From the IMG/VR virus record IMGVR_UViG_3300042197_002487, positions 1 through 28,262 of that record: 28,262 bases of DNA. One strand, given 5' to 3'. Both the position numbers and the translations under genes were made by a program. Below, in pieces: positions 1 through 28,262 of the stretch (the first letter of the stretch is position 1; each line of letters starts with the position of its first letter). The stretch comes from a virus. The notes under the pieces are model-generated. The model was given only the letters and a program-made list of their open reading frames with translations, was not told the DNA's origin and did no database searches.

Positions 1-351
1 AAAAGTGATACACCTGAAGAACAATCTTGGTTTAGAAATGATTCTAATTGTGTTTGGTTACTAGAAAGTAATCCTCAATTTAATAAACCTAATTCTTGGA
101 ATGATATTGTTGAAGATTGTGTTAAAGCTCTAAAACATATTAAAGCTGATGTACTTAGTTTTGATGTTAGAGTACAAAGTGCTACTAAAGGTAATGGAAA
201 ACCAAGAGAATACCAAGAATACATTTTATTAGAATGTAATAGTGCTAGTAGCTTATCAAGTACTAATGATGATATTAGTGTTGTAGCTACTAAATATATT
301 GAAATGTTACCTAAATTAATAATTAAAAAAGGAAAAAATGCTTTTAGTTGA
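1..351 (+). CDS. ATP-grasp ligase, C-terminal fragment (5' end outside window)
   Basis: The frame is open from the first base to a TGA at 349-351, giving the last 116 residues of a protein that starts upstream. The fragment reads like the end of an ATP-grasp fold: a helix with ALKHIKAD, then a strand with SFDVRV (about residues 52-58), then LLECNSASSL with Glu78 and Asn80 in the place of the E-x-N metal-binding pair of ATP-grasp enzymes, then a helix ending ATKYIEMLPKLI. ATP-grasp enzymes join a carboxylate to an amine through an acyl-phosphate. Known phage amidoligase clusters often include one, which fits the genes that follow. It overlaps the next start codon by 14 nt, suggesting coupled translation. 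The N-terminal ATP-binding half is not visible, so the family call rests on the C-terminal motifs and context. Confidence 0.6.
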   Translation, partial: KSDTPEEQSWFRNDSNCVWLLESNPQFNKPNSWNDIVEDCVKALKHIKADVLSFDVRVQSATKGNGKPREYQEYILLECNSASSLSSTNDDISVVATKYIEMLPKLIIKKGKNAFS

Positions 352-1303
352 AGAACCAGTAATAAAAAAAGAAAGAGTTAAAGTTAAACCTTGTTTAGCT
401 TTAATACCTAATAAACATTTAGATGATAGAATGGTATCTTTAGGTAATTTAACATTACATAATGATCTATATCTTGGTGATAAAAATCATACGATATATA
501 ATCAACCTGAAAATTGTTGTCAATGTATATATGCTAATTATTACAGGTTTGTTGATTCTAATACACAAGTATTAGATTATACTTATCATAATGGAATTAA
601 ATATCTATTTGAAGATTCATATGCTCGTATGACTATTGTATTATCAGATTTTATTAATCCTCTTAAAGATTATTATACTGATATTAAATATATTACTATG
701 TATATAGATTTATTAAAAGAGATGGATTCTCCTTGGTTTATTGAAGAACAAAATAAAAATGTTGTAGTATTAAGAATGAATAATTCTTTTTACAACAAAA
801 ATGAGAAATCTTTATTAACATTTCATTGGCAAGCTGTTAGAAATTTAATACTTAATTATACTTTACATGTTCCAGCAAGATTTATTGAGTTAGTTAATTT
901 ATACAGAAAAGATTTTGATATCTTATTCTTATATCAAGCTGCTTATAGAATGATACCTGTTAAATGTTTATTTTCTCAAAAAGGTCAGTATACTGTAAAT
1001 AATTATGTTCCTTTTCTACATATAATAAAATTCTCTCCTACTGTTTTTGGTGTTGATACTATAACATTTAATAGAATTAATAGAACATTAAAAGCTAGTA
1101 ATTTAAGAAGTAAAATAGTAAAAAGTAATAGTAGTAAACATTTCTTTCTTAATTATGATGTTGTATATACAAATGATAAAAACATTACTTTTACTATAAA
1201 AGAATATGAAAAGTTATATAAAGAATTAACTACAAAACAAAGTAAAGAAAGTTTATATTTAAAATTAAGATTATTAAAAGCAAACAAATTACATGAAAAC
1301 TAA
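338..1303 (+). CDS. Uncharacterised 321-aa protein in amidoligase cassette
   Basis: I do not recognise this protein. It is a mixed alpha/beta, soluble-looking protein with no signal peptide or membrane segment. A Cys cluster, CCQC (about residues 60-63), lies near the N terminus, and the C terminus is basic and rich in Lys and Leu. It overlaps the ATP-grasp gene before it by 14 nt and the class I amidotransferase gene after it by 11 nt. Such tight packing implies it belongs to the same transcription and translation unit. By position it could be an accessory subunit, a substrate-recognition factor or an unrecognised enzyme of the pathway; this is inference only. The ATG at 338 is the first start in a long open frame and follows an A-rich leader. 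Confidence 0.75.
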   Translation: MLLVEEPVIKKERVKVKPCLALIPNKHLDDRMVSLGNLTLHNDLYLGDKNHTIYNQPENCCQCIYANYYRFVDSNTQVLDYTYHNGIKYLFEDSYARMTIVLSDFINPLKDYYTDIKYITMYIDLLKEMDSPWFIEEQNKNVVVLRMNNSFYNKNEKSLLTFHWQAVRNLILNYTLHVPARFIELVNLYRKDFDILFLYQAAYRMIPVKCLFSQKGQYTVNNYVPFLHIIKFSPTVFGVDTITFNRINRTLKASNLRSKIVKSNSSKHFFLNYDVVYTNDKNITFTIKEYEKLYKELTTKQSKESLYLKLRLLKANKLHEN

Positions 1304-2057
1304 TAAAAAATTAATAGGTATACCTGCTTGGTCTTTAGGTGAAAATAGCTTTGGTGTACAAAAAGCATATCTTGAGTATTTTAGTAATTTTGGTCAAGTA
1401 GAAATACTAACACCAAATAGTAATATTAGAGAAGACTTAGATTTAGTTATATTACCAGGTGGTGCAGATACTATGTCTTATAACTATAATCAACCTCCAG
1501 GTTTTACTAATAGTATGAGTGATCCTTATAAAGACTATTTTGCTAAAGTAAACTTACCTCAATATATTAATGCAGGTATTCCTGTATTTGGTATTTGTCT
1601 TGGTATGCAACAACTAGCAATACATTTTAATGTACCTCTAATACAAAATATTAGTGCTACACATGGTTATAGTGGAGATAAAGATAAAGAAGATGTTAAT
1701 ACTTGTAAAGTTAACTTTTCATTAATAAATAAACTATTCCATGATTTTACTACTATAAGTTTTAAAGGTATTTATAAAGTTAATAGTTATCATCATCAAG
1801 GTGTTACATTAGAAAGCTTATCTAAAAATACTGATTTAATTCCATTATTAGTAATGAAAGATACAGAATTTACTATTAGTGGTGAAGAGTATACACTTGT
1901 AGAAGCTTTTATGCATAAAGAATTAGATATAATTGCAGTACAATATCATCCTGAAAGAATGTCTTGTGATGAGTTTAGTAATGCTGCTATTAAATATTTA
2001 TTGAGCAGAAAATCTGTAAAATATAAAACAGTACAAACTTTAGAATCTTTTAATTAA
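1293..2057 (+). CDS. Class I glutamine amidotransferase-like / peptidase C26 (gamma-glutamyl hydrolase-like)
   Basis: The 254-aa protein has the full set of class I glutaminase landmarks: LPGGADT (about 54-60), the nucleophile elbow GICLGMQQ with Cys102, NSYHHQG further on, and VQYHPE with His219 and Glu221 completing the Cys-His-Glu triad. The length and the PGGADT and SYHHQ motifs fit the C26 group (gamma-glutamyl hydrolases and gamma-Glu-GABA hydrolase, PuuD-like) better than the GATase domains of purine or pyrimidine synthesis. Members hydrolyse gamma-glutamyl amides or release ammonia from glutamine. Beside amidoligases it could trim a gamma-glutamyl intermediate or supply ammonia; which one is not visible. 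The start ATG overlaps the upstream gene by 11 nt. Eighteen A/T-rich bases separate its stop from the next start. Confidence 0.85.
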   Translation: MKTNKKLIGIPAWSLGENSFGVQKAYLEYFSNFGQVEILTPNSNIREDLDLVILPGGADTMSYNYNQPPGFTNSMSDPYKDYFAKVNLPQYINAGIPVFGICLGMQQLAIHFNVPLIQNISATHGYSGDKDKEDVNTCKVNFSLINKLFHDFTTISFKGIYKVNSYHHQGVTLESLSKNTDLIPLLVMKDTEFTISGEEYTLVEAFMHKELDIIAVQYHPERMSCDEFSNAAIKYLLSRKSVKYKTVQTLESFN

Positions 2058-2075
2058 TAACTTAAAATTTAAATT

Positions 2076-2963
2076 ATGAAAAATATTATTGTAAAATTAG
2101 ATAAAAATAATATTACCAAAATAGAAAATGTAAGATTAGGTAGTGATCCTGAATTCTTTCTAAGAGATAAAACAACAGGTAAATATATATCTGCTGTTGG
2201 TCTAATAGGAGGTAGTAAAGATAATCCTAGATTTATTAAAACTGGTTATGGTGTACAAGAAGATAATGTTGCTTTAGAGTTAACTTTACCTCCTACTAAT
2301 CATTACCTTAAAATGTATAACGATTGTATGTATATTATTGATTTTATTAATAATGAATTACAATCTAAAGGTCTTAATATTGAAGTAGTAAATGATGGTA
2401 GTCCTGATGCTACTATATTTACAGATGATGAGCTTAATACAGATGCTGCTAGAGAGTTTGGTTGCAGTCCTAGTATGAATGCTTGGAATTTAGAAGTTAA
2501 TCCTAGACCTTGTGCTACTGATAGTAATTTAAGATCTATTGGTGGTCATTTACATGTATCTTATAATAATATGAACTATGAAACATCTATTAACTTATTA
2601 AGAATATTAGATTTGTATTTGACTGTTCCAAGTATTCTTATAAATACAAATGGTAGTCTTAGAAGACAACTATATGGTAAAGCTGGTGAACATAGAATTG
2701 GTGGTGTAACTACTGAACTTAGAACTCTAGGTCAATTTTGGTTTCAATCAGCTAATTATGTTAAATGGGTATTTGATAATACTTTTGCTGCTATTGAAGC
2801 TTGTAATAATGGATTTATAATGGATCAAGAAGAAGAAGATTCTCAAGCAATTATTAATTGTATTAACAATAATGATGCTGAAATAGCTGAATATCTATGT
2901 GATAAATATAATATAAATTATACTATATCTGCACAAGAAGTAAAAATTGCTGTAGAACAATAA
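2076..2963 (+). CDS. phiEco32-type COOH-NH2 ligase (amidoligase type 2)
   Basis: The 295-aa protein carries the signature of the phiEco32-like amidoligase family, a glutamine-synthetase-fold group predicted to form amide bonds using ATP. LGSDPEFFL (about 21-29) is the diagnostic N-terminal strand with acidic metal ligands. DNVALELTLPP follows near 67-77, then GGHLHVSY (about 156-163) with the His-x-His pair, KAGEHR, and TTELRTLG near 212-219, matching the distal catalytic Glu-Arg strand. The length is normal for the family. Known relatives lie beside class II amidotransferases and ATP-grasp ligases, exactly as here. The amine and carboxylate substrates cannot be read from the sequence. Confidence 0.85.
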   Translation: MKNIIVKLDKNNITKIENVRLGSDPEFFLRDKTTGKYISAVGLIGGSKDNPRFIKTGYGVQEDNVALELTLPPTNHYLKMYNDCMYIIDFINNELQSKGLNIEVVNDGSPDATIFTDDELNTDAAREFGCSPSMNAWNLEVNPRPCATDSNLRSIGGHLHVSYNNMNYETSINLLRILDLYLTVPSILINTNGSLRRQLYGKAGEHRIGGVTTELRTLGQFWFQSANYVKWVFDNTFAAIEACNNGFIMDQEEEDSQAIINCINNNDAEIAEYLCDKYNINYTISAQEVKIAVEQ

Positions 2964-2997
2964 TTAAAATTAATTACTAACTAATAAATAATAAAAT

Positions 2998-4608
2998 ATG
3001 TGTGGATTATTAGGTTTTTCAGGTCACAAAGGCCAAACATTTGATAAGAATAAAATAAGAACTTTGTTTTTGTATAATCAAGAAAGAGGTAAAGATGCTT
3101 CAGGTTTTTGGAGTCCTAAAAACAATTTAGTAAAATCTTTAGATCAAGCAACTAAATTTCTTACTAAAGATTTTAAGAAAATTCAAGAAGATTGTCTATT
3201 GATAGGTCATGTTAGACAAGGTACTATTGGTAAAAATATGTTAGGTGTTGCACATCCTTTTGAAGGTAATACTGCTGTATTAGCTCATAATGGTACATTA
3301 TCTAATTATATTAGATTAGCTTCTAAGTATGAAATACAATCATCTGATTATACAACAGATACTCAAGTATTACATAAAATACTAGATGCTAATTTTGGTA
3401 CTAAAATATTAACAGAAATTGATGGTTCTGCTAGTTTACTTATTGCTGATAAAAATATAAGTCTTAAAAAAGGTCAAGAGAATAGTTTCTTAATGGCTTT
3501 TAGATTAAATAATCAAAGACCTTTATTTTATGGTATAACTGAAGAAGGTATGTATATTAGTAGTATTGAAGAATCATTAGATGCTATTGATTGTACTGAA
3601 ATTAAAGAGTTTAAAACTAATGTGTTGTATAGTATCTTTGAAGGTAAGATTATTAAAGAAGTAGTAATTCCTCAAAGACCTATTCCCAGTTATTCTAGTA
3701 GCAATTATGCTAATAGTAACTATTCTTATAGTAATACTGCTTTAACAGGTGCAAATATACATTACTGGACTAAATATCTTAATAATTGGATTAAAGCTGA
3801 TAGAACTAATCTTAGTCACGGTGTTGAACAAAATAAATATTATCTTCTTAAAGAAGTTAGTATATCAAATAAAACACTTACTATTGAAAATGATTTAGGT
3901 GAAGAATTTAAAGATATTCCTGTATTTTCTTTTTATTACAATCAACCTAATGAACCTTTAAATGGTACTGTTGATTCTTATGTAGTTGTTATGAAAAAAC
4001 TAACAGATACTAAAGAGAAAAATAAAATTGTATTTAATAAAGGTGATGTTGTTAAGATTAAATCTTTAGAAAAAGTAGATAGTCAAGGTAATAAAACTGT
4101 TTGTTGTTTATCTTATTTAGATAATGACTATTATGATGTTAATGTTAAATTTGTTAGACCTTGTGAAAGTAATGAAATAATGCATTATAATGTTGTAGAT
4201 CCTGAACTAGAAAAATCAAATATAGAACTTAGTAATAAACATAAAAATACTAATTTTAAAAGTTCTAGTAATTCTAATGATAATACTAATACTAATTTTT
4301 CAATGATTAGACCTGAAAATGAATCTTTTATAGCTCAATACATAGTAGAATCAGGATTATTAACATCAGATGAATTATCTGAAATGGTTTTGTGTTGTAA
4401 TAACAAAGAAATAAGTGATTTGTTTGATCTTGCGGAAGAATCAGTTATTACTCTTAATGATATGAATGATGTATTACAAGAAGAAACTGATGCTTTAAGT
4501 ATGATAAGTATAAAAGCTTTAAATAACTATATAGATGAAACAAAAGAAAAAATTAGTAGTTTATTAATAAATGCAATAGAATTATGGAAGAAACAACAAT
4601 TAGTGTAA
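2998..4608 (+). CDS. Class II glutamine amidotransferase with long C-terminal extension
   Basis: The protein starts MCGLLGFSG, so Cys2 becomes the N-terminal nucleophile after Met removal, as in class II (Ntn-type) glutaminases such as PurF, GlmS and AsnB. The ERGKDASGFW segment, GHVRQGTIG (70-78, Arg73), AHNGTLSN (96-103) and DTQVL (from Asp121) supply the glutamine-binding residues. The glutaminase domain fills about residues 1-230. A Ser/Asn/Tyr-rich linker follows, then an unrecognised region (about 250-390) rich in beta strands with GDVVKIKS, an Asn/Ser-rich linker, and a helical C terminus. No known synthase partner domain is fused, so the ammonia or the glutaminyl group is probably handled by the neighbouring ligases. 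It overlaps the next gene by 25 nt. Confidence 0.85.
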   Translation: MCGLLGFSGHKGQTFDKNKIRTLFLYNQERGKDASGFWSPKNNLVKSLDQATKFLTKDFKKIQEDCLLIGHVRQGTIGKNMLGVAHPFEGNTAVLAHNGTLSNYIRLASKYEIQSSDYTTDTQVLHKILDANFGTKILTEIDGSASLLIADKNISLKKGQENSFLMAFRLNNQRPLFYGITEEGMYISSIEESLDAIDCTEIKEFKTNVLYSIFEGKIIKEVVIPQRPIPSYSSSNYANSNYSYSNTALTGANIHYWTKYLNNWIKADRTNLSHGVEQNKYYLLKEVSISNKTLTIENDLGEEFKDIPVFSFYYNQPNEPLNGTVDSYVVVMKKLTDTKEKNKIVFNKGDVVKIKSLEKVDSQGNKTVCCLSYLDNDYYDVNVKFVRPCESNEIMHYNVVDPELEKSNIELSNKHKNTNFKSSSNSNDNTNTNFSMIRPENESFIAQYIVESGLLTSDELSEMVLCCNNKEISDLFDLAEESVITLNDMNDVLQEETDALSMISIKALNNYIDETKEKISSLLINAIELWKKQQLV

Positions 4609-6386
4609 CCAAAGTAATAACTACAGGTGAAATTAATAGATTCAAGTATGTTTGTATAAATGATGTAAAATACTTTATTGGTGATTTTATTAAAATAGAT
4701 GTTGATGGTAAAAAAGATACTAAATATAGAATTGATGATATTTTATTTAGTTCTATAATAGTTAGCACTCTATCAGGAGCATCTCATCATTATTTATTTA
4801 GTACCATTAAAGAATTCTATTATAAAAAAGATTACAAAAAATATTGTTTACAAAAGAAATCAAGAATTTATGAAACAGATTTAAATTGTGAAGTAATTGA
4901 TTGTCTTGGTAACACAGATATACTAGGTAATATGATTTATTATAAAGGTAAATTATATAGTAAATCAGTATGTGGTCAAACTACAGACAGTTATTTAGAT
5001 AATGTTAAACCTATGCCTTTTAAAGAAATTAATAGGCTTAGTTATAAATTATGTGAATTATCTAATGTTTGGTGTCATCCAGGATATGTAAATAAAGTTT
5101 ATATTATTGATGCTGCAACTACTCATATTACTAATATAAAATTTGTTCATAAAAAATTAATTAATACTGTTTATAGTACTTATACTCATTATTTTAGTAT
5201 TATTGATAATAATATTAATTTAGATAGTACAATAATTCCAGTACTAAATGGTGAAGAATTACTAAAAAATGATAATTTTATAATAGGTCCTAAATCAAGT
5301 ATGATTATTAGAAAAGATAGACTTAAAAAAGATGATACTTATAAAATGTATCCTAATGGATATTATTTTCCTGAGTTTAATAATTTACAATCTAAAACTA
5401 AAGATATAGCTCACAACTATAAATTTGGTTTAGATTCTAATACTCATCTTATTACTGAAGGTCTTAAATATACCTTCGGTGTAGAAATAGAAATGGCTGA
5501 CTGTTGTTTTCCTCCACACTTTCTAACTGATATGAATATCAAAGTTGAGAAAGATGGTAGTATTAGAAATACTAGAAATGAGAAATACGGTCCAGAAGTC
5601 ATTACAGGTGTTCTTAAAGGCGACAAAGGCTTTGAGCATCTGCAGTACATTTGTACTGAATTAGCTAAAAGAAGTGAGCTTAATCATACTTGTGGTATTC
5701 ATACCCATATTGGTAATGCTAACTTTAATAATGCTAATATAGTTATGTTGTTTAAACTAGCTAAAACATTAGAGAATGATATCTTTAATATGTTACCTGC
5801 TAGTAGGAGAAAAAATGAGTATTGTAGATTACTACCTAATCTTGATTTTAACTTTAATAACTGCAAAGATATTATGGATTTAAAGATTAGAATTGATAAC
5901 TATTATACAGAGTTATTTACTCTAGCAGCTAACTGTCCTCCTAATGATAAAGTTAATAAAACTAAAAATCATCCTAAAGGTGCTAAAGTAGGTTATGATC
6001 ATTCTAATATTAGATATTGTTGGATTAATTTTATTCCAGCTTTATTTAATACTAGAAATACTAACCCTCCTATTTACACAATAGAATTTAGACCTTTTAA
6101 TGCTAGTACTAATTTTATTAAGATTAAAAATTGGGTTAAGATTTGTATGGGTATTGTAAACTTTTCTGAGAATTATCATAAAGATATAATTAATAGTTAT
6201 ATCAGTATTGATGGTATTAAAGAGCCTATTACACTTAAAAATGTAATGAAAAAAGTTTATCCTAAATCTTATAGAAAATTAAATGAATTTATTGATAGTA
6301 GAACAGAAATCTTTACTAAAACTAGTGACGAGGACTTTGATGCTAGTAGTACTAATGAAAAACTAAAAATTAAAGAACTAATATAA
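4584..6386 (+). CDS. Amidoligase family protein with N-terminal extension
   Basis: This 600-aa protein has a C-terminal amidoligase domain of the Amidoligase_2 type (glutamine-synthetase fold). TFGVEIEM (about 297-304) carries the first metal-binding acids, KVEKDGSI and GPEVITGVL follow, CGIHTHIG (about 370-377) holds the His-x-His pair, and YTIEFRPFNAS near 499-509 is the distal Glu-Arg strand. Residues 1-285 are an unrecognised beta-rich region that starts with a GDFIKIDVDG segment and contains several Cys residues. It is clearly different from the type 2 ligase upstream, so the cassette encodes two distinct amide-forming enzymes. The catalytic core uses noticeably more C-ending codons than its surroundings. 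The stop codon abuts the next ATG. Confidence 0.85.
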   Translation: MEETTISVTKVITTGEINRFKYVCINDVKYFIGDFIKIDVDGKKDTKYRIDDILFSSIIVSTLSGASHHYLFSTIKEFYYKKDYKKYCLQKKSRIYETDLNCEVIDCLGNTDILGNMIYYKGKLYSKSVCGQTTDSYLDNVKPMPFKEINRLSYKLCELSNVWCHPGYVNKVYIIDAATTHITNIKFVHKKLINTVYSTYTHYFSIIDNNINLDSTIIPVLNGEELLKNDNFIIGPKSSMIIRKDRLKKDDTYKMYPNGYYFPEFNNLQSKTKDIAHNYKFGLDSNTHLITEGLKYTFGVEIEMADCCFPPHFLTDMNIKVEKDGSIRNTRNEKYGPEVITGVLKGDKGFEHLQYICTELAKRSELNHTCGIHTHIGNANFNNANIVMLFKLAKTLENDIFNMLPASRRKNEYCRLLPNLDFNFNNCKDIMDLKIRIDNYYTELFTLAANCPPNDKVNKTKNHPKGAKVGYDHSNIRYCWINFIPALFNTRNTNPPIYTIEFRPFNASTNFIKIKNWVKICMGIVNFSENYHKDIINSYISIDGIKEPITLKNVMKKVYPKSYRKLNEFIDSRTEIFTKTSDEDFDASSTNEKLKIKELI

Positions 6387-7832
6387 ATGTGTTTATTAAT
6401 AATAAAACCTAAAAATGTAGAGTATGATCATGACTTTGTTGTATGGTCTATAAATAATGGATCAACATTTAATAGAGATGGTATTGGTGCGGCTGTTAGA
6501 AAACAGTCCACCAATACTCTTAAGTTAAATAAAGGATTCTTTAATAACAATGTAAATTATCTTATTAATTGGTTAAAAGAGTGTGATATACAAGCTGAAG
6601 ATGAGTTAATGGTTCACCTTAGACAAGGTACTGCAGGTGGAGTTACTACTTATAATTCTCATCCTTATATCTTGGGTGAAGAATCTTTTAAAGATTCTAT
6701 TAATCCTCTAGTATCAATATTAACTTTAGATGATGATAATGTTACAACAGGTGTATTTGCTCATAATGGTATCTTTTGGAGAAATTCTTATCATACTTTT
6801 GATGGTAACTTAAGTGATACTTATAATTGGGCTATAAATCATTTTGGTACTATAAGTGACATTGATAACTTAAAAGTTAAAGGTGATGAGTATTTTAATG
6901 AAAAAGAAAATAGTTATATATCTGAAGATTTAAATGGTCAGAAAGTATGTTTTATGTTTCCTGATAGAGATTTAATTAGAGTAGGTAACTTTATTTCTGA
7001 GAAAGGATATTTATTTAGTAATAGAGGATATAGTAATGGTTCTTATAATGATAGAGGTGGTGTTGAAATAACTGGATCTAATCATGTACCTATGAATATG
7101 CATAAACATACTCCTATTATAAATTTATTACCTGCTAAAAATGAAACTCCTGCAGAAATTATAGTTGATAATTCTGCTAATTTAGAAGTTAAAAAGACTA
7201 TTAATACTACTTTTGATTTTACAGTTGAAATAACTGCTAATCCTAAACCAGATACTAAAGTTATTGGATTTAGACCTAGTAAGAAAAGTATAAATACTTA
7301 TAGTTTAGATAGATCTAAATTATCTAATGATATTAGATTAGAAGATATTGATATTTTTATTAATATTAATAAAGATAACAAAGATCATTTTATTCTAAAA
7401 GCTAAAGAAAACTTATGTATAAATAATAAAAGTATCAATAAAAATGATAAGTTTTTTATTTATAATGTTTATGATAGTGTAACAACTGGTAATGCTCATG
7501 CTTTATCTTTAAGACCAACTAATATTGATAATGAACAAACATATATTATAAAGAATAGAGATATTAATATTGATTTTCAATTAAGTTGTAAAGATAAATA
7601 TTTCCCTATGTATAGAGATTATATGAAACTTGTTGGTTTATATGGTATAGATATATCTAATAATAAGAAAAAGAAGCTAAGAGCTTTGTATAATAGTCTA
7701 AAACAAAATAATAAGTTACCAGCTTATAAAACTTTTTATAAAGCAAAGTATGAGCCACAAGCTATTATTATGTTTTATGATAATTTTTATAAAGAAGATA
7801 GTATTAGAGAAATTGATTTTGAAACTACCTAA
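6387..7832 (+). CDS. Second class II glutamine amidotransferase-like protein
   Basis: The protein starts MCLLIIKP, placing Cys2 as the N-terminal nucleophile of an Ntn-type glutaminase. Supporting motifs are NRDGIGAA (about 30-37), VHLRQGTAGG (from about 72), NSHPY, FAHNGIFW (near 125-132) and LSDTYNW. These match the viral and bacterial class II amidotransferase-like family that is more divergent than PurF or GlmS. Residues beyond about 230 are unrecognised. A beta-rich stretch around 315-390 contains NKNDKFFIYNV, which recalls a similar stretch in the other amidotransferase. Its ATG directly follows the TAA of the amidoligase gene, so translation is probably coupled and the two products may act together. 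Confidence 0.8.
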   Translation: MCLLIIKPKNVEYDHDFVVWSINNGSTFNRDGIGAAVRKQSTNTLKLNKGFFNNNVNYLINWLKECDIQAEDELMVHLRQGTAGGVTTYNSHPYILGEESFKDSINPLVSILTLDDDNVTTGVFAHNGIFWRNSYHTFDGNLSDTYNWAINHFGTISDIDNLKVKGDEYFNEKENSYISEDLNGQKVCFMFPDRDLIRVGNFISEKGYLFSNRGYSNGSYNDRGGVEITGSNHVPMNMHKHTPIINLLPAKNETPAEIIVDNSANLEVKKTINTTFDFTVEITANPKPDTKVIGFRPSKKSINTYSLDRSKLSNDIRLEDIDIFININKDNKDHFILKAKENLCINNKSINKNDKFFIYNVYDSVTTGNAHALSLRPTNIDNEQTYIIKNRDINIDFQLSCKDKYFPMYRDYMKLVGLYGIDISNNKKKKLRALYNSLKQNNKLPAYKTFYKAKYEPQAIIMFYDNFYKEDSIREIDFETT

Positions 7833-7842
7833 TTAAATCAAA

Positions 7843-8346
7843 ATGGTTAAAAATATAAGAGATAAAAACATAAAAACAATAGTTAAAACTTCTTTTGATT
7901 TTAGTATACCTAAAGCTGAAATTATAGAAGAACTTAAACATAATGATACTTTAGATGATGGTCTTGAAAGTATTGGTGATATTATACTATTTGCAGAGTA
8001 TTCTAAATATACAATAGAATCATTAAGAAAAAAGTTATTAAACACATATAGTAAGTGTTATTATGATATGGCAGGATCTATATCAAGTAAAATATATGTA
8101 AGTGAAGGTGTTTTATTATCTATAATAGATAAAATAATTAAAGAAATGCCTGTGTCTATATTTTATATAAATTCTACACACATTCTTCAAATTAAAGATA
8201 CTTTGGAAGCTCGTTACAATATTGTATGGGATAATTCAGAGAATATATATTCTTATATAACAATCATTAAAAATATTAAAAATAACACATTATCAAATCA
8301 TTCTTCTAATTATGATTGGGGATATGCTTATGATGTATGGGATTAA
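7843..8346 (+). CDS. Uncharacterised 167-aa protein
   Basis: No family is recognised. The protein is mostly helical by eye, soluble, with a basic N terminus (MVKNIRDKNIK) and a short aromatic, acidic C terminus ending YAYDVWD. It lies 10 nt after the second class II amidotransferase and 12 nt before another unknown gene, in the same operon. It could be the last gene of the amidoligase cassette or the first of a separate pair. Base composition is like its neighbours. Confidence 0.65.
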   Translation: MVKNIRDKNIKTIVKTSFDFSIPKAEIIEELKHNDTLDDGLESIGDIILFAEYSKYTIESLRKKLLNTYSKCYYDMAGSISSKIYVSEGVLLSIIDKIIKEMPVSIFYINSTHILQIKDTLEARYNIVWDNSENIYSYITIIKNIKNNTLSNHSSNYDWGYAYDVWD

Positions 8347-8358
8347 TAACTAAAAAAT

Positions 8359-9438
8359 ATGAATAAAGAAGAAGCAACTAAAATACTAAAATTAATGTTT
8401 GAATTGGTTTTAAAAACCATTAATATAGAAGCAAATAATAAATTCAATGTAATTGAAAATATTGATTATTATTATAAAAATCATTATATGAATAACAATT
8501 GTTATTTAGATAATTTTATTAATTTGCTATCTGAAAAAAATTCTATTATATTGCCTATTAAAATAGTTAATGTGAATATAAATAATTCTTACATTGAAGA
8601 TTTTAATATTCTAAATGTTGAAAAAAGAATTAATGCAGAGTTATTAAAGTATGGTTTTAAAAGTGATTTGGCTGTATTTACTTTTAGTTTAAAAAGAAAT
8701 TTTCAAATTGATAACTACTATTTAAGTACTTTAAAAATTAAAAATATACAAAATCTAAATGATTTTGTTGTTTTATCTTTAGATTCATCTAAAATAAGTG
8801 TATTAAGTGAATTTAAAACTATTATATTAGATAATTTTAATGAATATTTAGATCAAACAAATACTTTTAATAGTCTTCAAGAAAGTATAATTAAAAGTAA
8901 TCCTAAATATCATAAACTTATTAATGATAGAAAGAAGTTTTCAGATAAATTAAGTAGATTACAAGATGCTTTTAATGAAGTTGATGATGAAATAAAAAAC
9001 ATTGAATATAATATTCTTAATGAAGAATTAGTTAGTAATTTTTATAATGAGTATACTAATGTAAAAAATAATTGTTTTAATAATTTATGGAATTCTATTA
9101 AAGATGATTCTTCTTCACAAAGTATTACTGAGGAATCTAATGAGTTATATCCTGCTAGTGTAGATCCTTTTGAAGATAGTAATGATGTTTATGTAAAAAA
9201 AAGAAAAGAGTCTGTAGATCTTATAAAGGACCATATTTCTCAAATAAATAAAAGATATTCAGGTAAATTAGGTCCATCAGGACATGTAAAATGGATACCT
9301 CCAGTATCTGATTTTATTACTAATAAATATGGTACTACTACATCAAATATTTCTATCAACTCTTATATTAATGAAAACCCAATACAACATGAAGACCTTG
9401 TCTGGAATCCAAGTCCTAGTGAGGAATTGCCTCTCTAA
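8359..9438 (+). CDS. Uncharacterised 359-aa protein with central coiled coil
   Basis: No family is recognised. Residues about 1-185 are Asn/Ile/Lys-rich alpha/beta sequence. A long helix with heptad character runs about 190-245 and contains DKLSRLQDAFNEVDDEIKN, which suggests a dimeric coiled coil. After an acidic Ser/Glu linker, the C terminus holds GPSGHVKWIPPVSD and ends EELPL. The acidic hydrophobic tail is loosely like SSB-type tips, but that could be chance. The gene is among the most AT-rich here. It overlaps the start of the next gene in another frame by about 50 nt. Confidence 0.65.
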   Translation: MNKEEATKILKLMFELVLKTINIEANNKFNVIENIDYYYKNHYMNNNCYLDNFINLLSEKNSIILPIKIVNVNINNSYIEDFNILNVEKRINAELLKYGFKSDLAVFTFSLKRNFQIDNYYLSTLKIKNIQNLNDFVVLSLDSSKISVLSEFKTIILDNFNEYLDQTNTFNSLQESIIKSNPKYHKLINDRKKFSDKLSRLQDAFNEVDDEIKNIEYNILNEELVSNFYNEYTNVKNNCFNNLWNSIKDDSSSQSITEESNELYPASVDPFEDSNDVYVKKRKESVDLIKDHISQINKRYSGKLGPSGHVKWIPPVSDFITNKYGTTTSNISINSYINENPIQHEDLVWNPSPSEELPL

Positions 9439-21779: not shown

Positions 21780-24700
21780 TTAATACTCATTATTTTTATC
21801 TCTTTCAAATGGTTCAAATAATTTTGCAAGTTGAAAACCATATAACCATTTAAAACTATAATAAAAAAGAGGAGTGTCATCTTTTTTCTTAGCTTTTTTA
21901 CCTGTTTTACCAAGAGGATGAATTAATGACCTACCTTCAGCTTCACCAAAAATATCTAAAGATTCATCAAAAGTATTACCAAGGGTTTTAAAAAAGTCAT
22001 CACCTAAAGCCATAATAGGGATAGGATTTTTAAATAAAGCATACCAGTCGGCAGGGTTGATTATACCAACTAACTCTCTACGGTATCTATTAAGAGTTCT
22101 ATAAAATTCTCGCGTGGCTAAGTTTTTTTTATAGTACTTCTCATCATCATCACCTCCACCTGCTAAAGCACTTAATAAAAAGTATATACCAAGAATAAAT
22201 CTTAATTCTGTAGCAAGAGCTTTTATTTGACCTTGTTTATATTCTAAGAAATCTTCAAATCTATAAGTACCATTAGCAATTGCAGGTATATTAGGATTTT
22301 GTAATTTAAAATGTTCAAAAGCTACTCTAGCTCTATGCTCATTAACTTGATATCTTAAAGGTGATGTTGCTGACATTTTATCAAAAAATCCACCAAACGT
22401 AACTACTTCAAAACCAAGTCTAGCTATATTTTGTGCTACATAACCAAGTAATCTAAATGAAGCTTTTTCATGAACACCTAATTGATCAGTTAATATAGCA
22501 GTATATCTAGCTTCAGTAATGGTACGAGTTCTAGGTGAATATTTTAAACTACTTCTATTAGAATTATTAACAAAAATATTAACAAGTCCTTCACCAAAAC
22601 CTCTAAACCTTTCTTCAGCAAGAGCAGGTAACCAACCTCTAAATGCCATAACTAATTTACCAAACATAGTAGTATTAAACGCATTTAAATCTTCAGCATT
22701 TATACCACCTTTAATAGTATTAACAGTAGCCATAACATTACCTCTAAATTCAGAATATAATCTTACACCTTCTTTAGTTAATCCATTTTTATCAATAATA
22801 CCATCTATAATAAGATCATCACCTTCAAGTCTAGATGTATCTAATAAACTTTTATAAGTACCAGCTTCTCTATCTTTTTTAGTTAATCTTGTTAATTGTC
22901 CATTAATAATAGTATAATTTTGTAACATACTATACATTACCTGTTCATCAACATGTTCATCACCTGATCTAAAAGCAGCTAATAAAGTATCATAATTTAT
23001 TAATTTAGCAATTTTATTTTTAGATGAAAACTCTTTAGCAATATCAGCACCACGTTTATTTGCATAAGGTTGAAAAAAGTTAGCTAAAGCAAAGTATAAT
23101 TCTTTATTTCTAAATCTATCATTTAAAGATTTTCTAAATTGTTGTTTAGTATAAAAATAACCTTTTTCACCTTCAAATAAAGCATTAGTTCTAGCACCCA
23201 TTAAGTTAACTGTAGCTGATTTAAAAGCTAATGCTAATTGTTTTAACTGTTGATAATTTTTAGCTTTTAAAAGTAATTGACCAAGTTCATTACCTTGAGT
23301 AGATATACCATATAAATGAAAATTTACTAGCTGTTCAAATGTTTTAGATTCATCACTTTGTTTAGATTTCTCTCTATTAGGAGTATTAACACCACTAATT
23401 GATTTAGTAGTACCATCGCTAGTAGTTTCAACAACACCTTTTGTAGCTAATATTTCTTTTAAAGCTTCCATATTAGCTTCAATTTCTTTAAGATTGTTAT
23501 AATTATAAGCCATTTCAGCAAATAACACTATACTTGAAGATAAATCAAAAGATTTTAAAGTATTATCTATTTCTCCTTGTTGATTAATTAAAGGATTAAC
23601 AAATATTCTAGGTACTTCTCTTTTAGCTAAACCAGTTTCAGGATCTATTTCAGTACGAACTGTCATAGTATCTTGTCTATATGTTGTAACATTTTCTTGA
23701 ACAGACATCATATTTTTCATCATATCTGTTGATAATGTAAAGTTACCTGTTAAATATTGCTCTACTAAATCAGCTTTTATATTAGGAATAAAGTTATTTG
23801 GTATCTTGTTATATGGTAAATCTAAAAGTATTCTAAATTCTTCCATACTATCATTCCAAAAATTATAATAATCTAGTAAAGGTTTATTATTTTTAATCTT
23901 TAAAAAGTCAGGATTAAAATCAGATTCAATTAAAGTACTTTCATCAATTTCTTGATAAATATACCAATAGTCACTATACTTTACTTTATTGTTTATATTA
24001 TCAGGATTATTTTCTTTCATCCAGTCATCAAGTATTGAGCTATTATCTTGGTCAGCAATACTTATTGAATTAATAGCCATAAACTTAAGTTTACGTTCTT
24101 CATAAATTTCTTTATAGTTATCTTTAAACCTAAGATGTTTTTTTAAAAAACTATCATCTTTTGCATCTCTAGCAACTTTAAGTTTATCATAAAAGTCACC
24201 TTTAATTTTAGTATGTAAATTACCAGTCTTTTCATTTACTAATAACTTATATACACTAAAGCCAGGCATTCCATTAGATTGACCCCACTTTTGTATTTCT
24301 TGATCAAACTTTTTAAGTTTTTTAGAAAATGATTGTAAAGATAATCTTGTATTATCATTAGCTTTACTTATTTTATTATAAGCTTCTTTAAATATAGTAT
24401 TATTAATACCACTAAACTTTCTAAAATATTTATCCCACCAACTTATACTTTTATCTCCTTTAAGAAGTTCTTGTTGACTAGCACTTAAATTTCTATCAAT
24501 AAGTTTTTGTTGTAATATTTTTTCTAAAGCATCAGTCTTACCGCCTAATACATTAATTGCATTGATATACTCTATTTTTTTATCTTCTGATAAATTAGGA
24601 AGAGTTTTAAGAAACTCTGAAGAACTTGCTGCAATACTTTTAAATATAGTAATATCTGCTTTTAAATCAAGGATTTTATCATTGCTTAAATATTCAGGAC

Positions 24701-25967
24701 TATCGGGATTATCAATATCTTTAGTAATATTATTTAAACCATCTAAATAATTATTAACAATAGTTTGATATTCTTTTTTTACATACTCAAAATCTTTAGA
24801 TAACATTAACTGACTAATACTAGTATTTAAGTTTCTAATTCTAATCATAAGTTTTTTATACTCAGGAGAACTTTGCACAAGTCCTTGAGCACGTTTAGTT
24901 AAATTATTTCTAAGAATTAAAGCATCTTCTAAACTTTGATTTAATGCTTTACTACCAGTATCTTCTAATATAATAGGAATTTGTTGTAAATATTCATTAG
25001 CTGCAGTACCAATTTTAACACTTCTTATTTTATTAGTAAGTGTTTGACCAATTTTATTAGTTGGATCTGTTTTAGCTTTAGCTTGAATATTCATTTGAAT
25101 AGGAGCAACTCTAGCAAATCTATAACTAGTAACACCTAAAGTCTTACCCATTTCCATAAGTAATGGTATCTGAGCATTAAAATCTTCCATCTTATAATCA
25201 GGAATCCAATTAGGATCTACAATTTTTCCTGCTTTAAGAGTAGATGGTTTAGGAGTAATAGTTTTCCAATCTATAAGACCACCAGTTTTATCTGAAAAAA
25301 CAACATGAACGTCAGCAGTACCACCTATATTTTTAAGTTTATTAAATAAGGTAGCTTCAACTTGTAATAAAGCTTTACCTTTAGGATCTATTTTTTTCTG
25401 AGTTTCAATAATAAATTTAATATTATTTTCAACTTCAGTAACTAATGATTTCCAATCAGTATTAGAAGGTAATTCTAATTCTTTTAAAATAGTTTGTTGA
25501 GATTTAACTTTAGTTTTATCATATATAGGTTCTAAATAACCTGATGAATCATTAGCAATAAAAAATCTAAATAAATCTTCTATTGCTTTATGTACTTTAG
25601 TACCAACATTAGCTTTAATTTCATTATCAGGAAGTTTAGTTTCTTCATCAGCAGTGTTAACACCTCTTCTTCTAGTATATTTAATTTTAGTAATATCTGT
25701 AGTTCTACCTTTAAATGCTAGTTCTTTAGTATCTAACCATACATAACGCATAGTTTTACCACTAGGATCTAAATGATATCCTTTAGTTAATTGTGTATTA
25801 TCTACTAATTCAGTAGTTAGCTTATCTTGTATTACTTTAAGTCTATTAAAAACATCTTGTGTTTTTTCATTAGGATCAGATGATAACCAATTATTTGTTA
25901 TCTTATTATTAACAGCATCTCTAACTTCAGCAATTGTTGTTTTATTTGGATCTATTGAACAACTCAT
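21780..25967 (-). CDS. 1395-aa multidomain protein with N-terminal PD-(D/E)XK nuclease, probable virion/ejected protein
   Basis: Residues about 110-290 look like a RecB/AddB-type PD-(D/E)XK nuclease: VGTKVHKAIEDLF with a His near 125, VEATLFN, GGTADVHVVF with an Asp near 217, GGLIDWKT with Asp and Lys near 231-233, and FNAQIPLLMEM with the Gln. No Cas4-style iron-sulphur cysteines are evident. The rest (about 300-1395) is unrecognised and mostly helical, with coiled-coil-like stretches. Near the C terminus, FGKLVMAFRGWLPALAEERF and a hydrophobic segment (about 1255-1272, FILGIYFLLSALAGGG) precede an acidic patch. Giant proteins coded opposite the replication genes are usually virion-associated or ejected polyvalent proteins in such phages. 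The ATG at 25965-25967 overlaps the upstream stop (ATGA). Confidence 0.7.
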   Translation of the reverse strand: MSCSIDPNKTTIAEVRDAVNNKITNNWLSSDPNEKTQDVFNRLKVIQDKLTTELVDNTQLTKGYHLDPSGKTMRYVWLDTKELAFKGRTTDITKIKYTRRRGVNTADEETKLPDNEIKANVGTKVHKAIEDLFRFFIANDSSGYLEPIYDKTKVKSQQTILKELELPSNTDWKSLVTEVENNIKFIIETQKKIDPKGKALLQVEATLFNKLKNIGGTADVHVVFSDKTGGLIDWKTITPKPSTLKAGKIVDPNWIPDYKMEDFNAQIPLLMEMGKTLGVTSYRFARVAPIQMNIQAKAKTDPTNKIGQTLTNKIRSVKIGTAANEYLQQIPIILEDTGSKALNQSLEDALILRNNLTKRAQGLVQSSPEYKKLMIRIRNLNTSISQLMLSKDFEYVKKEYQTIVNNYLDGLNNITKDIDNPDSPEYLSNDKILDLKADITIFKSIAASSSEFLKTLPNLSEDKKIEYINAINVLGGKTDALEKILQQKLIDRNLSASQQELLKGDKSISWWDKYFRKFSGINNTIFKEAYNKISKANDNTRLSLQSFSKKLKKFDQEIQKWGQSNGMPGFSVYKLLVNEKTGNLHTKIKGDFYDKLKVARDAKDDSFLKKHLRFKDNYKEIYEERKLKFMAINSISIADQDNSSILDDWMKENNPDNINNKVKYSDYWYIYQEIDESTLIESDFNPDFLKIKNNKPLLDYYNFWNDSMEEFRILLDLPYNKIPNNFIPNIKADLVEQYLTGNFTLSTDMMKNMMSVQENVTTYRQDTMTVRTEIDPETGLAKREVPRIFVNPLINQQGEIDNTLKSFDLSSSIVLFAEMAYNYNNLKEIEANMEALKEILATKGVVETTSDGTTKSISGVNTPNREKSKQSDESKTFEQLVNFHLYGISTQGNELGQLLLKAKNYQQLKQLALAFKSATVNLMGARTNALFEGEKGYFYTKQQFRKSLNDRFRNKELYFALANFFQPYANKRGADIAKEFSSKNKIAKLINYDTLLAAFRSGDEHVDEQVMYSMLQNYTIINGQLTRLTKKDREAGTYKSLLDTSRLEGDDLIIDGIIDKNGLTKEGVRLYSEFRGNVMATVNTIKGGINAEDLNAFNTTMFGKLVMAFRGWLPALAEERFRGFGEGLVNIFVNNSNRSSLKYSPRTRTITEARYTAILTDQLGVHEKASFRLLGYVAQNIARLGFEVVTFGGFFDKMSATSPLRYQVNEHRARVAFEHFKLQNPNIPAIANGTYRFEDFLEYKQGQIKALATELRFILGIYFLLSALAGGGDDDEKYYKKNLATREFYRTLNRYRRELVGIINPADWYALFKNPIPIMALGDDFFKTLGNTFDESLDIFGEAEGRSLIHPLGKTGKKAKKKDDTPLFYYSFKWLYGFQLAKLFEPFERDKNNEY

Positions 25968-26194
25968 TTTATGTATTCTGATTTATTTAATTTATTTATT
26001 TTATTTCTAGATTTAGTTCTATTAACACAAAATCTAACTCTTCTATTATCAAGTATCCATATCTCACCATTATCTAAAGCAACAGTAAAATAAAGATAAT
26101 CTTCTTCATGTGTTTCATTAACTAAAAATGCATATCCTTCAGCATCAAACTCAGGAATATATACAGGTATTGTTGGGTTTAATTGTAATAACAT
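25964..26194 (-). CDS. Small phage protein, 76 aa
   Basis: A compact beta-rich protein: VYIPEFDAEGYAFLVNETHE, then LYFTVALDNGEIWILDNRRV and RFCVNRT, then a basic tail. The pattern (P-x-GxA, acidic turn, Y/W-x-V-x-LDxGExW, N-xxVR-xxxN-T) resembles small conserved proteins in phage structural regions, whose function is unknown. It is coupled on both sides: its ATG overlaps the stop of the gene before it, and its stop overlaps the ATG of the 1395-aa gene. Shared translation suggests a chaperone or partner of these large proteins; that part is inference. Confidence 0.65.
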   Translation of the reverse strand: MLLQLNPTIPVYIPEFDAEGYAFLVNETHEEDYLYFTVALDNGEIWILDNRRVRFCVNRTKSRNKINKLNKSEYIK

Positions 26195-28262
26195 TATTCA
26201 CATTTAATTGATATTGTACCATCATTTACTAAACTATTAAAAGCAATAGCTTCATCATTAGACATAGCTAATCCTACATCAGCAGTTTTAGTTTCACCTT
26301 GTACAAACTCTCTAAATCCTTCTATATCTTGTTTAGAACCTAATATATGGATTTGCTCTGGTTCAAATACTACAACTTGGTCTGCTGAATCTGCTGTAGC
26401 AGGTTTTTTAGAATTAGGATGATGAAATAATGCAGCATCATCAGTTTTTCTATCATATTGTTCTTCAAATTTAGAAGGAGTTTGAACTAATAAAGCTCCA
26501 GTAGCATTATAAAAGTTTTTAGGATTTTTGATGTTTAAAACAACTTGATACATTGTAGGAGCACCTCTTAATTTTCTACCTATAAGTGATTCAGAAGGTT
26601 GTGCTCTATCCATTTGAATTTGAGCATATTTTTTAGAACCAGAAAACCAAATACCTCTTCCTGTAGCCCCTTCTCTTTTAGCAAATTTTTCTCCTTCAAT
26701 AGGTTCATTTGCTCCATGATAAACAATATCTTTTACTTTACTAGTATAGTTATACTCGCCACTTGAAGGATTCTTTATTATACCTAAAGATACTCTTGCT
26801 ATGTAATCATTATATTGTTCTTGTGTACCAAATTGTTGTAAAGCAGGAGTAGATTCGTAAGCATTTTTAGCTCCTTCTAAGAACTCTTTATTATTTAGTC
26901 TTTCTTGTAATTCTGCAAACTTTTTAACTTGTTCTTGTTGATTACCTTGAAGTATAGGATTAGTGTTAGGTTTGTTTAATGATTCAAGATATTGAGAGTA
27001 TAGTTGTTGAGCAGTTGCTTTTTGTTGTAAAAAACTTTCACTTACTTTTTTTCCTTTTTCTTTTATATTAAAAATATCATAAAGAGCTTCTTTAGAAAAT
27101 TCCTGTAGTGACATTTTTTTAACATCTTCTATTCTTTTATTTTGTAATCCTGATAATTTAAGTAATTCATTATATAACTGTATTAACCACTTTAGAAAAC
27201 TTTGTTTATCATTACTACTTAATTTAGAACCCTCATCTTTAATTGATTTAGATAATGCTTCTTCTAATATGTAATTTTGATATTCTTTTGATGATTCATT
27301 ACCTAGTTTTAATGCTTCTTTTACATAAAAAGAATTATTTAATACTTTTTGAACATATACACTATTTTTAATTTTTTCTAATCCTTCACTATACAAAGCA
27401 GGGTTAATAGTCTTAATTTTATCTAACCACAAATGCCCTGCTTCTTCTATTAATGTTTTATTTTCAGCATCTTTATTTAAAAATATATTACCATTATGTG
27501 TAAATCCTTGTATTTTTCCATTATTGTCATATTTTATAGAAGAATTTCCTTTAATATTTATTTCAGTAAGTATTTGTTTAATTACATCTTGTCTAACTTT
27601 ATTCTTTTCTTTAATTGCTCTATTTAATTCATCTAATAAATAATCTTGATCTCTAAATGTATAATCATTATTAACTTCTTTTTTATTTGTATTTTTAATT
27701 AATCTATCTATTTCAGTTTCTTCATACGTTTCATCTATTTCATTTCCTGAACTATCTACTAAAACCCCTCCATCACCAGTATTATCTGCAATATCTTGTG
27801 TAGGCACATCTTTAGAAAATTCTTTTTCAATCCATTCATTCAGTTTTTCAAGATATTCTATACCATATTCAGAATTATAAAATTGTTTTAAATTAATATC
27901 ATCTTTTGAAAACTCCATAGCATCATAAGCTAATTCAAAATCAGAAGCTAATCCAGGATTAGAAATTTTCATTTCTTTTACAAAAGATCTTAAATATGTT
28001 TTTATATAAACATCATAATACTCTTTTGTAAAATTATTAGTTATTGGTTTTGATAATTTTGAAAGTTTAATTACATTAAAACCAGTGTACTTATTATCTT
28101 GATATTTATTAAAATAAGAATCATTTTGTGTAAAGCTTTGAATAATTTGTACAGCTTGTTCTGGATTAAATACTCTCCAAATCCCTTTTTTACCTTTGTT
28201 AACTATTATTTTGTTAAACTTATCAAAAGGTATAGTTTTTGAATATCCTTTATCACTAGTAA
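26194..28262 (-). CDS. Polyvalent protein with degenerate zincin-like segment and ADP-ribosyltransferase-like domain (N terminus outside window)
   Basis: The frame stays open from the window edge through the ATG at 27972, so that Met is probably internal and at least 96 more residues precede it. Counting from it, about 150-190 holds GKIQGFTHNGNIFLNKD and then LIEEAGHLW. This matches the zincin segment of phage polyvalent proteins, except that the first His of HExxH is Glu. Residues about 410-560 look like an ART-PolyVal ADP-ribosyltransferase: DIVYHGANEPIEGEKF, GRGIWFSGSKKYAQ, TMYQVVLNIKNPKNF and VVFEPEQIHILGS with the late Glu. Such proteins are packaged and delivered to modify or counter host factors. 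The target cannot be read. Confidence 0.65.
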   Translation of the reverse strand, partial: TSDKGYSKTIPFDKFNKIIVNKGKKGIWRVFNPEQAVQIIQSFTQNDSYFNKYQDNKYTGFNVIKLSKLSKPITNNFTKEYYDVYIKTYLRSFVKEMKISNPGLASDFELAYDAMEFSKDDINLKQFYNSEYGIEYLEKLNEWIEKEFSKDVPTQDIADNTGDGGVLVDSSGNEIDETYEETEIDRLIKNTNKKEVNNDYTFRDQDYLLDELNRAIKEKNKVRQDVIKQILTEINIKGNSSIKYDNNGKIQGFTHNGNIFLNKDAENKTLIEEAGHLWLDKIKTINPALYSEGLEKIKNSVYVQKVLNNSFYVKEALKLGNESSKEYQNYILEEALSKSIKDEGSKLSSNDKQSFLKWLIQLYNELLKLSGLQNKRIEDVKKMSLQEFSKEALYDIFNIKEKGKKVSESFLQQKATAQQLYSQYLESLNKPNTNPILQGNQQEQVKKFAELQERLNNKEFLEGAKNAYESTPALQQFGTQEQYNDYIARVSLGIIKNPSSGEYNYTSKVKDIVYHGANEPIEGEKFAKREGATGRGIWFSGSKKYAQIQMDRAQPSESLIGRKLRGAPTMYQVVLNIKNPKNFYNATGALLVQTPSKFEEQYDRKTDDAALFHHPNSKKPATADSADQVVVFEPEQIHILGSKQDIEGFREFVQGETKTADVGLAMSNDEAIAFNSLVNDGTISIKCE

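Follow-up and report, generated by a model that had tools for sequence, protein, structure and literature searches.

The seven genes at positions 1-7832 of a 28,262-base virus contig from IMG/VR (the whole stretch analyzed here, called the window, to which positions refer) likely constitute the crAss-like-phage version of a known amidoligase cassette, with the amide-bond pathway proposed for it below. The evidence comprised which genes are present and in what order, the preservation of their catalytic residues, conservation of a common core across very different phages, and crAss-like relatives of the window. The genes do not represent a novel system; they are a crAss-like variant of the published phage "peptidoglycan modification cassette," a seven-gene set thought to build three unusual linkages into the side chains of peptidoglycan and to block superinfection (PMC5498523). 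New here are the layout of the crAss-like version, the recurrence of a second class II glutamine amidotransferase (GATase), the loss of gamma-glutamyl cyclotransferase (GGCT, PF06094) in near relatives, and evidence placing gene 2, a protein without a sequence family, in the cassette.

Gene content and catalytic residues

The cassette genes were as follows.

1..351 (5' end outside the window), + strand: gene 1, C-terminal 116 amino acids of a RimK-type ATP-grasp ligase, assigned by similarity to the ATP-grasp protein of contig L003
338..1303, + strand: gene 2, 321-amino-acid protein without a sequence family, with an invariant Cys60-Cys61
1293..2057, + strand: gene 3, class I glutamine amidotransferase / C26 gamma-glutamyl hydrolase-like protein (Pfam C26 1.9e-19, GATase 6e-15)
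2076..2963, + strand: gene 4, COOH-NH2 ligase type 2, phiEco32-like (PF14395; Pfam 1.5e-10, PHROG 3815 2e-55)
2998..4608, + strand: gene 5, class II GATase with nucleophile Cys2 (GATase_6 2.3e-12)
4584..6386, + strand: gene 6, Amidoligase_2 (PF12224, glutamate-cysteine-ligase/glutamine-synthetase-like; Pfam 1.4e-16)
6387..7832, + strand: gene 7, second, divergent class II GATase (MCLLIIKP...), assigned by profile comparison with phage class II GATases

An earlier note on this DNA had described seven consecutive genes, six of them from amide-bond or glutamine families, and its coordinates, reading frames, families and overlaps or abutments were all confirmed. The order ran from the ATP-grasp C terminus through gene 2, C26, COOH-NH2 ligase, class II GATase and Amidoligase_2 to the second class II GATase, with spacings of -14, -11, +18, +34, -25 and 0 bases between successive genes. 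As a seven-gene unit the set held in its families and tight spacing, but not in its bounds: the window starts within the ATP-grasp gene, so the cassette is truncated on the left, and it has no clear right border because more genes follow at 10-12 bases, into a replication module. A complete ATP-grasp gene, and the gene order of the window, were found in a relative, the 97-kb contig L003; the ATP-grasp gene of L015 is likewise full-length.

Gene 1 was 91-94% identical to the C-terminal third of the 289-amino-acid ATP-grasp ligase of L003 and held the metal-binding E-x-N (LLECNSASS). The full L003 protein matched the RimK-like PHROG 2599 at 9e-21, and the family profile matched RimK alpha-L-glutamate ligases among solved structures at 1.5e-11. 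At the sequence level, the cassette protein shared with RimK and related ATP-grasp amino-acid ligases the ATP-grasp fold and the metal-binding Asp and Glu-x-Asn, although the similarity was weak; Asp and Glu were each kept in 112 of 112 homologues and Asn in 108. For the COOH-NH2 ligase and Amidoligase_2, no solved-structure relatives were found by sequence. Ten of the 12 glutamine-synthetase-like catalytic acidic, His and Arg positions tested in gene 4 were invariant in 124 homologues, the other two being kept in 122, and gene 6, which bears an N-terminal extension of ~290 amino acids, retained its catalytic residues in 133-135 of 135 homologues (E301, E303, H373, H375, E501 and R503 in all 135). 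The triad of gene 3 was similarly conserved (Cys102 71/72, His219 71/72, Glu221 72/72), as were Cys2, Arg73, Asn98, Gly99 and Asp121 of gene 5 (136-143 of 145 homologues), whose C-terminal region of ~300 amino acids had no assigned fold. Gene 7 reached no Pfam cut-off (best GATase_4, 0.13); it matched a profile of the other phage cassette class II GATases at 2e-11 (HHalign 97.6%, E 3e-12), and its Cys2, Arg79, Thr82, His126-Asn127-Gly128 and Asp144 were invariant across 15 relatives. Profile searches thus did place the ATP-grasp protein and both ligases in their families, and catalytic residues, kept in nearly all homologues of every enzyme, have not been lost.

The C26 gene of L003 (8957-9989) was split by a group I intron (RF00028, E 4.5e-24) at L003:9253-9507, directly behind the nucleophile motif GICLG; the C26 genes of the close relative L015 and of the window were without it. 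An accessory domain common to genes 5-7 and to c42, a protein encoded upstream, was considered and rejected, HHalign having found nothing. A scan of bacterial genomes for relatives of the COOH-NH2 ligase had at least one contig from a metagenome-assembled genome among the matches listed.

Conservation and layout across phages

Two scans for the COOH-NH2 ligase yielded 160 viral-contig loci, some overlapping, and removal of near-duplicates and poorly covered loci left 81 non-redundant, well-covered loci with this ligase. Class II GATase was present at all 81, Amidoligase_2 at 80, ATP-grasp at 67, C26 at 50 and GGCT at 30. The COOH-NH2 ligase, Amidoligase_2 and class II GATase, which lay within a few genes of one another at 80 of the 81 loci, are the minimal, near-obligate core. 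Cassette content was conserved in more than 100 other phage contigs, which excludes chance; that these are unrelated metabolic genes, neighbours by coincidence, is scarcely credible in the face of the three-enzyme core, even though phage genomes are mosaic and layouts vary between lineages. A co-inherited, multi-step amide/glutamine pathway, as the earlier note had claimed, is well supported by the recurrence of the gene set and its conserved catalytic residues. That note had also singled out two amidoligases with several glutaminases as special. The 81-locus counts make this combination the rule instead: both ligases, a class II GATase and usually an ATP-grasp ligase occurred in almost every cassette, including those of phiEco32 and UFV-P2.

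Profile searches in phages recovered the gene set widely; its order varied with lineage, and two layouts recurred. The podovirus type ran C26, COOH-NH2 ligase, c7, Amidoligase_2, GATase II, ATP-grasp and sometimes GGCT, followed by primase/helicase genes. The crAss type, to which the window belongs, ran ATP-grasp, a variable gene, C26, COOH-NH2 ligase, GATase II, Amidoligase_2 and often a second GATase II, followed by replication genes. The protein c7 is specific to the former:

L009:9767-10387 and homologues: c7, ~200-amino-acid protein between the two ligases in most podovirus-type cassettes, with a near-invariant Arg-Gln in 'RQWxRG'; absent from the crAss type

We found the cassette in phiEco32, UFV-P2, BUCT695, Alcaligenes QDWS535, the crAss-like phages cr108_1 and phi14:2, and cyanophage Lbo-JY46. 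It was common among phages that infect Pseudomonas, Escherichia, Vibrio, Bacteroidota and cyanobacteria, and the hosts of its carriers include Aeromonas and Alcaligenes. Published carriers are PSA-HP1/RIO-1, phiEco32, 7-11, PA11, tf, LUZ24, PaP3 and CW02 (PMC5498523), and the cassette genes of UFV-P2 are likewise in print (PMC3890496). Like the published cassette, the window combined COOH-NH2 ligase, Amidoligase_2, class II GATase, ATP-grasp and glutamine amidotransferase in one early/replication-side block; it differed in its own gene order and extra GATase II. In the published cassette an unannotated Cys-motif protein often lies next to the COOH-NH2 ligase. Both cr108_1 (NC_055878) and Cellulophaga phi14:2 (NC_021806) shared with it an ATP-grasp gene followed by COOH-NH2 ligase, GATase II and Amidoligase_2, near DnaB/Sak4/primase genes, but lacked the second GATase II, and phi14:2 further differed in having GGCT, no C26 gene and a membrane-anchored GATase II. 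Likeness extended to crAss-like virion genes in the relatives of the window: TerL of phi14:2 matched L003, L015 and L016 at 4e-76 or better, and its major head protein at about 1e-68. Judged by these proteins, the close relatives of the window are crAss-like (Crassvirales); the crAss-type TerL and head protein were seen in those relatives, the window itself holding no recognised virion genes.

Flanking the cassette, two genes were kept in the closest relatives:

7843..9438, + strand: genes 8 and 9, proteins without assigned function, 10-12 bases downstream, with homologues at the corresponding position in L002 and L003

The + strand continued with a DnaB-like helicase, Sak4, primase, RusA, exonuclease, ribonucleotide reductase, dUTPase and PhoH, and from ~21.8 kb the minus strand encoded giant proteins. 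One of these, of 1,395 amino acids (21780-25967, minus strand), had a weak exonuclease-family match near its N terminus (phrog_298, 7e-6), and the sign of the GC skew flipped near it, together with the switch of coding strand. Another, of 688 amino acids and open at the window edge (26194-28260, minus strand), had no Pfam match below 0.01; its C-terminal part appeared by eye to be ADP-ribosyltransferase-like (YHGANEP...GRGIWFSGSKKYA). No structured RNAs were found in the window, promoters and terminators were not above shuffled sequence, and no named phage had near-identical DNA. Elsewhere, many crAss-type loci carried a uracil-DNA glycosylase gene directly after or near the cassette (L004:17765-18403, L006:12948-13658, L056, L062, L079, L080), which was not seen in the stretch covered by the window. 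Extra open reading frames lay inside the split helicase gene of L002 (L002:9783-10358, homing-endonuclease-like by eye) and between gene 2 and C26 in L016 (L016:2822-3631).

Upstream of the cassette, L003:1697-2569 encoded a nicotinate/nicotinamide phosphoribosyltransferase-like protein (NAPRTase family, PF04095 8e-21), and the same contig had a weak match to phosphoribosyl pyrophosphate (PRPP) synthetase. PncB and PrsA genes stood just before the cassette in cyanophage Lbo-JY46 (L005:4038-8247). These NAD-salvage genes possibly form an NAD-rebuilding module. As a general partner of the cassette they were unsupported, a PRPP synthetase match occurring in only one of six relatives, below cut-off.

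Class II GATases and gene 2

The second class II GATase occurred at 17 loci, counting the window, all of them crAss-type cassettes, which makes it characteristic of a lineage and no peculiarity of a single phage. The crAss-type cassettes also included 11 unique membrane-anchored class II GATases, that of phi14:2 among them. Each begins with a hydrophobic stretch of ~20 residues, which a basic segment separates from the nucleophile Cys.

L006:9489-11405, and in L019, L023, L024, L030, L038, L079, L080, L082 and L176: class II GATases in which a hydrophobic N-terminal anchor and a cluster of basic residues come before the catalytic Cys

The positive-inside rule would put the catalytic domain of these proteins in the cytoplasm, at the membrane. 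The Cys lies behind the anchor with no Met in front of it, and the enzymes would need processing to expose it and become active. Bacteria are known to amidate lipid-linked peptidoglycan precursors at the cytoplasmic face, by means of MurT/GatD, and the anchors of these related phages therefore mildly favour an envelope-linked target.

Gene 2 had no match in Pfam, PHROG or NCBIfam, and compared by sequence profile with other cassette proteins it stayed below 25% in HHalign. Its AlphaFold model (pLDDT 68, pTM 0.77) had no match in a fold search of solved structures in the PDB. In a library of viral folds the best match was a 300-amino-acid protein of cr108_1 (E 4e-3, prob 0.98), with weaker matches to ctelJ1 and LAh_8. 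This protein corresponds by length, not by accession, to gp030, the only annotated cr108_1 gene of exactly 300 amino acids, which is situated in the same cassette between ATP-grasp and C26. A model of c23, whose gene precedes that of the COOH-NH2 ligase in cassettes of the podovirus type, matched proteins of RIO-1, CW02, CVT22, Cronobacter GAP52, LAh_8 and ctelJ1, so that LAh_8 and ctelJ1 were fold neighbours common to both models; RIO-1 and CW02 are published cassette carriers (PMC5498523). Among medium-sized unlabelled genes immediately upstream of the COOH-NH2 ligase, 39 of 57 encoded a C-[FYWC]-[GSA] motif, versus 65 of 472 controls; the sequences counted are related to one another, so a P value for this difference should not be read at face value. 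The main Cys-motif sequence family had Cys-Phe in 26 of 28 members, and Arg, Gln and Tyr-x-Arg in 28 each; a papain-like reading of it was dropped, as it has no invariant His. Gene 2 carried Cys-Cys-Gln, not the exact motif, at a helix start in a poorly predicted stretch. Judged by its modeled fold, gene 2 is best read as a divergent representative of an uncharacterised fold family specific to the cassette, and it probably belongs to the cassette and is no passenger.

Proposed pathway and substrate

Family chemistry suggests how the enzymes would act together. The three ligases (genes 1, 4 and 6) would use ATP to turn carboxylates into acyl phosphates that react with amines, forming amide bonds of the gamma-glutamyl or aminoacyl type, and the class II GATases (genes 5 and 7) would supply glutamine-derived ammonia, by which one or two carboxyls become primary amides. 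The C26-type gene 3 may hydrolyze gamma-glutamyl amides, trimming or unmasking the product, or provide a further source of ammonia, and gene 2 would be a cassette-specific accessory protein. The least certain step is the target. Our guess is a peptidoglycan precursor in the cytosol or at the membrane face, whose stem peptide would be amidated or branched early in infection, and we put this substrate forward only tentatively. The peptidoglycan prediction has been credited to Iyer et al. and Hardies et al. 2013 (by PMC5498523 and PMC10580990), and another suggestion is that the cassette readies the wall for lysis (PMC11945000). Early action is consistent with immediate-early transcription of the cassette genes in phage HP1 (PMC7082346) and with the SU10 proteome, in which ATP-grasp and GATase proteins were detected and classed as early gene products (PMC4281155). 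The earlier note's statement that the cassette has no known product stood insofar as no biochemical test was found in the literature; it did not stand in that a specific hypothesis, the three side-chain linkages, already exists.

Several points weigh against this reading. The peptidoglycan target was derived from comparative genomics only, and the literature on the cassette gave no enzymology and no measured activity or product. The window has no podovirus-type c7 gene between its two ligases, and the ~97-kb relatives L003, L015 and L016 yielded no match to GGCT, a component of the published cassette, the window itself being truncated. GGCT was, however, absent from 51 of the 81 well-covered loci and is therefore not required; the claim is of a variant, not of identity. 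The window's own GATases (starting MCGLLG and MCLLII) are without a membrane anchor, the cassette ligases as a rule have no membrane segments, and the cleavage that frees the Cys of an anchored GATase could also release the enzyme from the membrane.

Alternatively, a protein of the host or the phage might be tagged post-translationally, in the manner of RimK, with amino acids or a small peptide, and the GATases would amidate this tag. The cassette ATP-grasp protein is nearest to RimK, the enzyme that glutamylates ribosomal protein S6. For related ATP-grasp families of phages, host proteins are the predicted substrates (PMC4431377), and early expression suits host takeover (PMC7082346). A single tag, however, needs fewer ligases and glutaminases than the cassette has, no target protein is encoded nearby, and since carriers infect very different hosts the target would need to be near-universal, so we regard tagging as unlikely. 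We are similarly doubtful that the cassette makes a small soluble product, either a nucleotide amidate or a peptide in gamma-glutamyl or amidated form, to serve as signal, inhibitor or counter-defence. Such a product would fit the apparent solubility of all cassette proteins of the window, the NAD-salvage genes near the cassette in L003 and Lbo-JY46, and the best NCBIfam model of gene 3, gamma-glutamyl-CDP-amidate hydrolase, though that match lies far below the model cut-off; but such neighbours are not general, and no exporter or biosynthetic end-enzyme is linked.

Amino-acid-bearing DNA bases occur in other phages, and in most layouts the cassette adjoins primase/helicase or replication genes, so hypermodification of phage DNA with amino acids or amides might be considered. 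It is nevertheless improbable: the eight cassette phages searched had no thymidylate-synthase-type gene (PF00303, the phage pyrimidine hydroxymethylase family), no base-modifying anchor enzyme is linked, and phage tf, a carrier of the cassette, had DNA that was cut by HaeIII and read directly by Sanger sequencing (PMC3517423).

Returning to the peptidoglycan precursor, a more elaborate version of the pathway would add an overlooked component, a fast-evolving N-terminal Cys-aromatic family (gene 2, with one or two copies in several cassettes) acting as carrier or transferase with the ligases. In crAss-like phages the machine would moreover be held at the cytoplasmic membrane face by an anchored, proteolytically activated class II GATase, amidating or extending lipid-linked precursors. 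We consider this combination a long shot.

The cassette is common, is expressed early and has kept all its catalytic residues, yet its product has been a guess for over a decade. The comparison made here yields a minimal core, a likely missing component in the gene 2 family, and a clue to location in the anchored GATases, which together make reconstitution of the pathway, or a comparison of muropeptides, straightforward to design.

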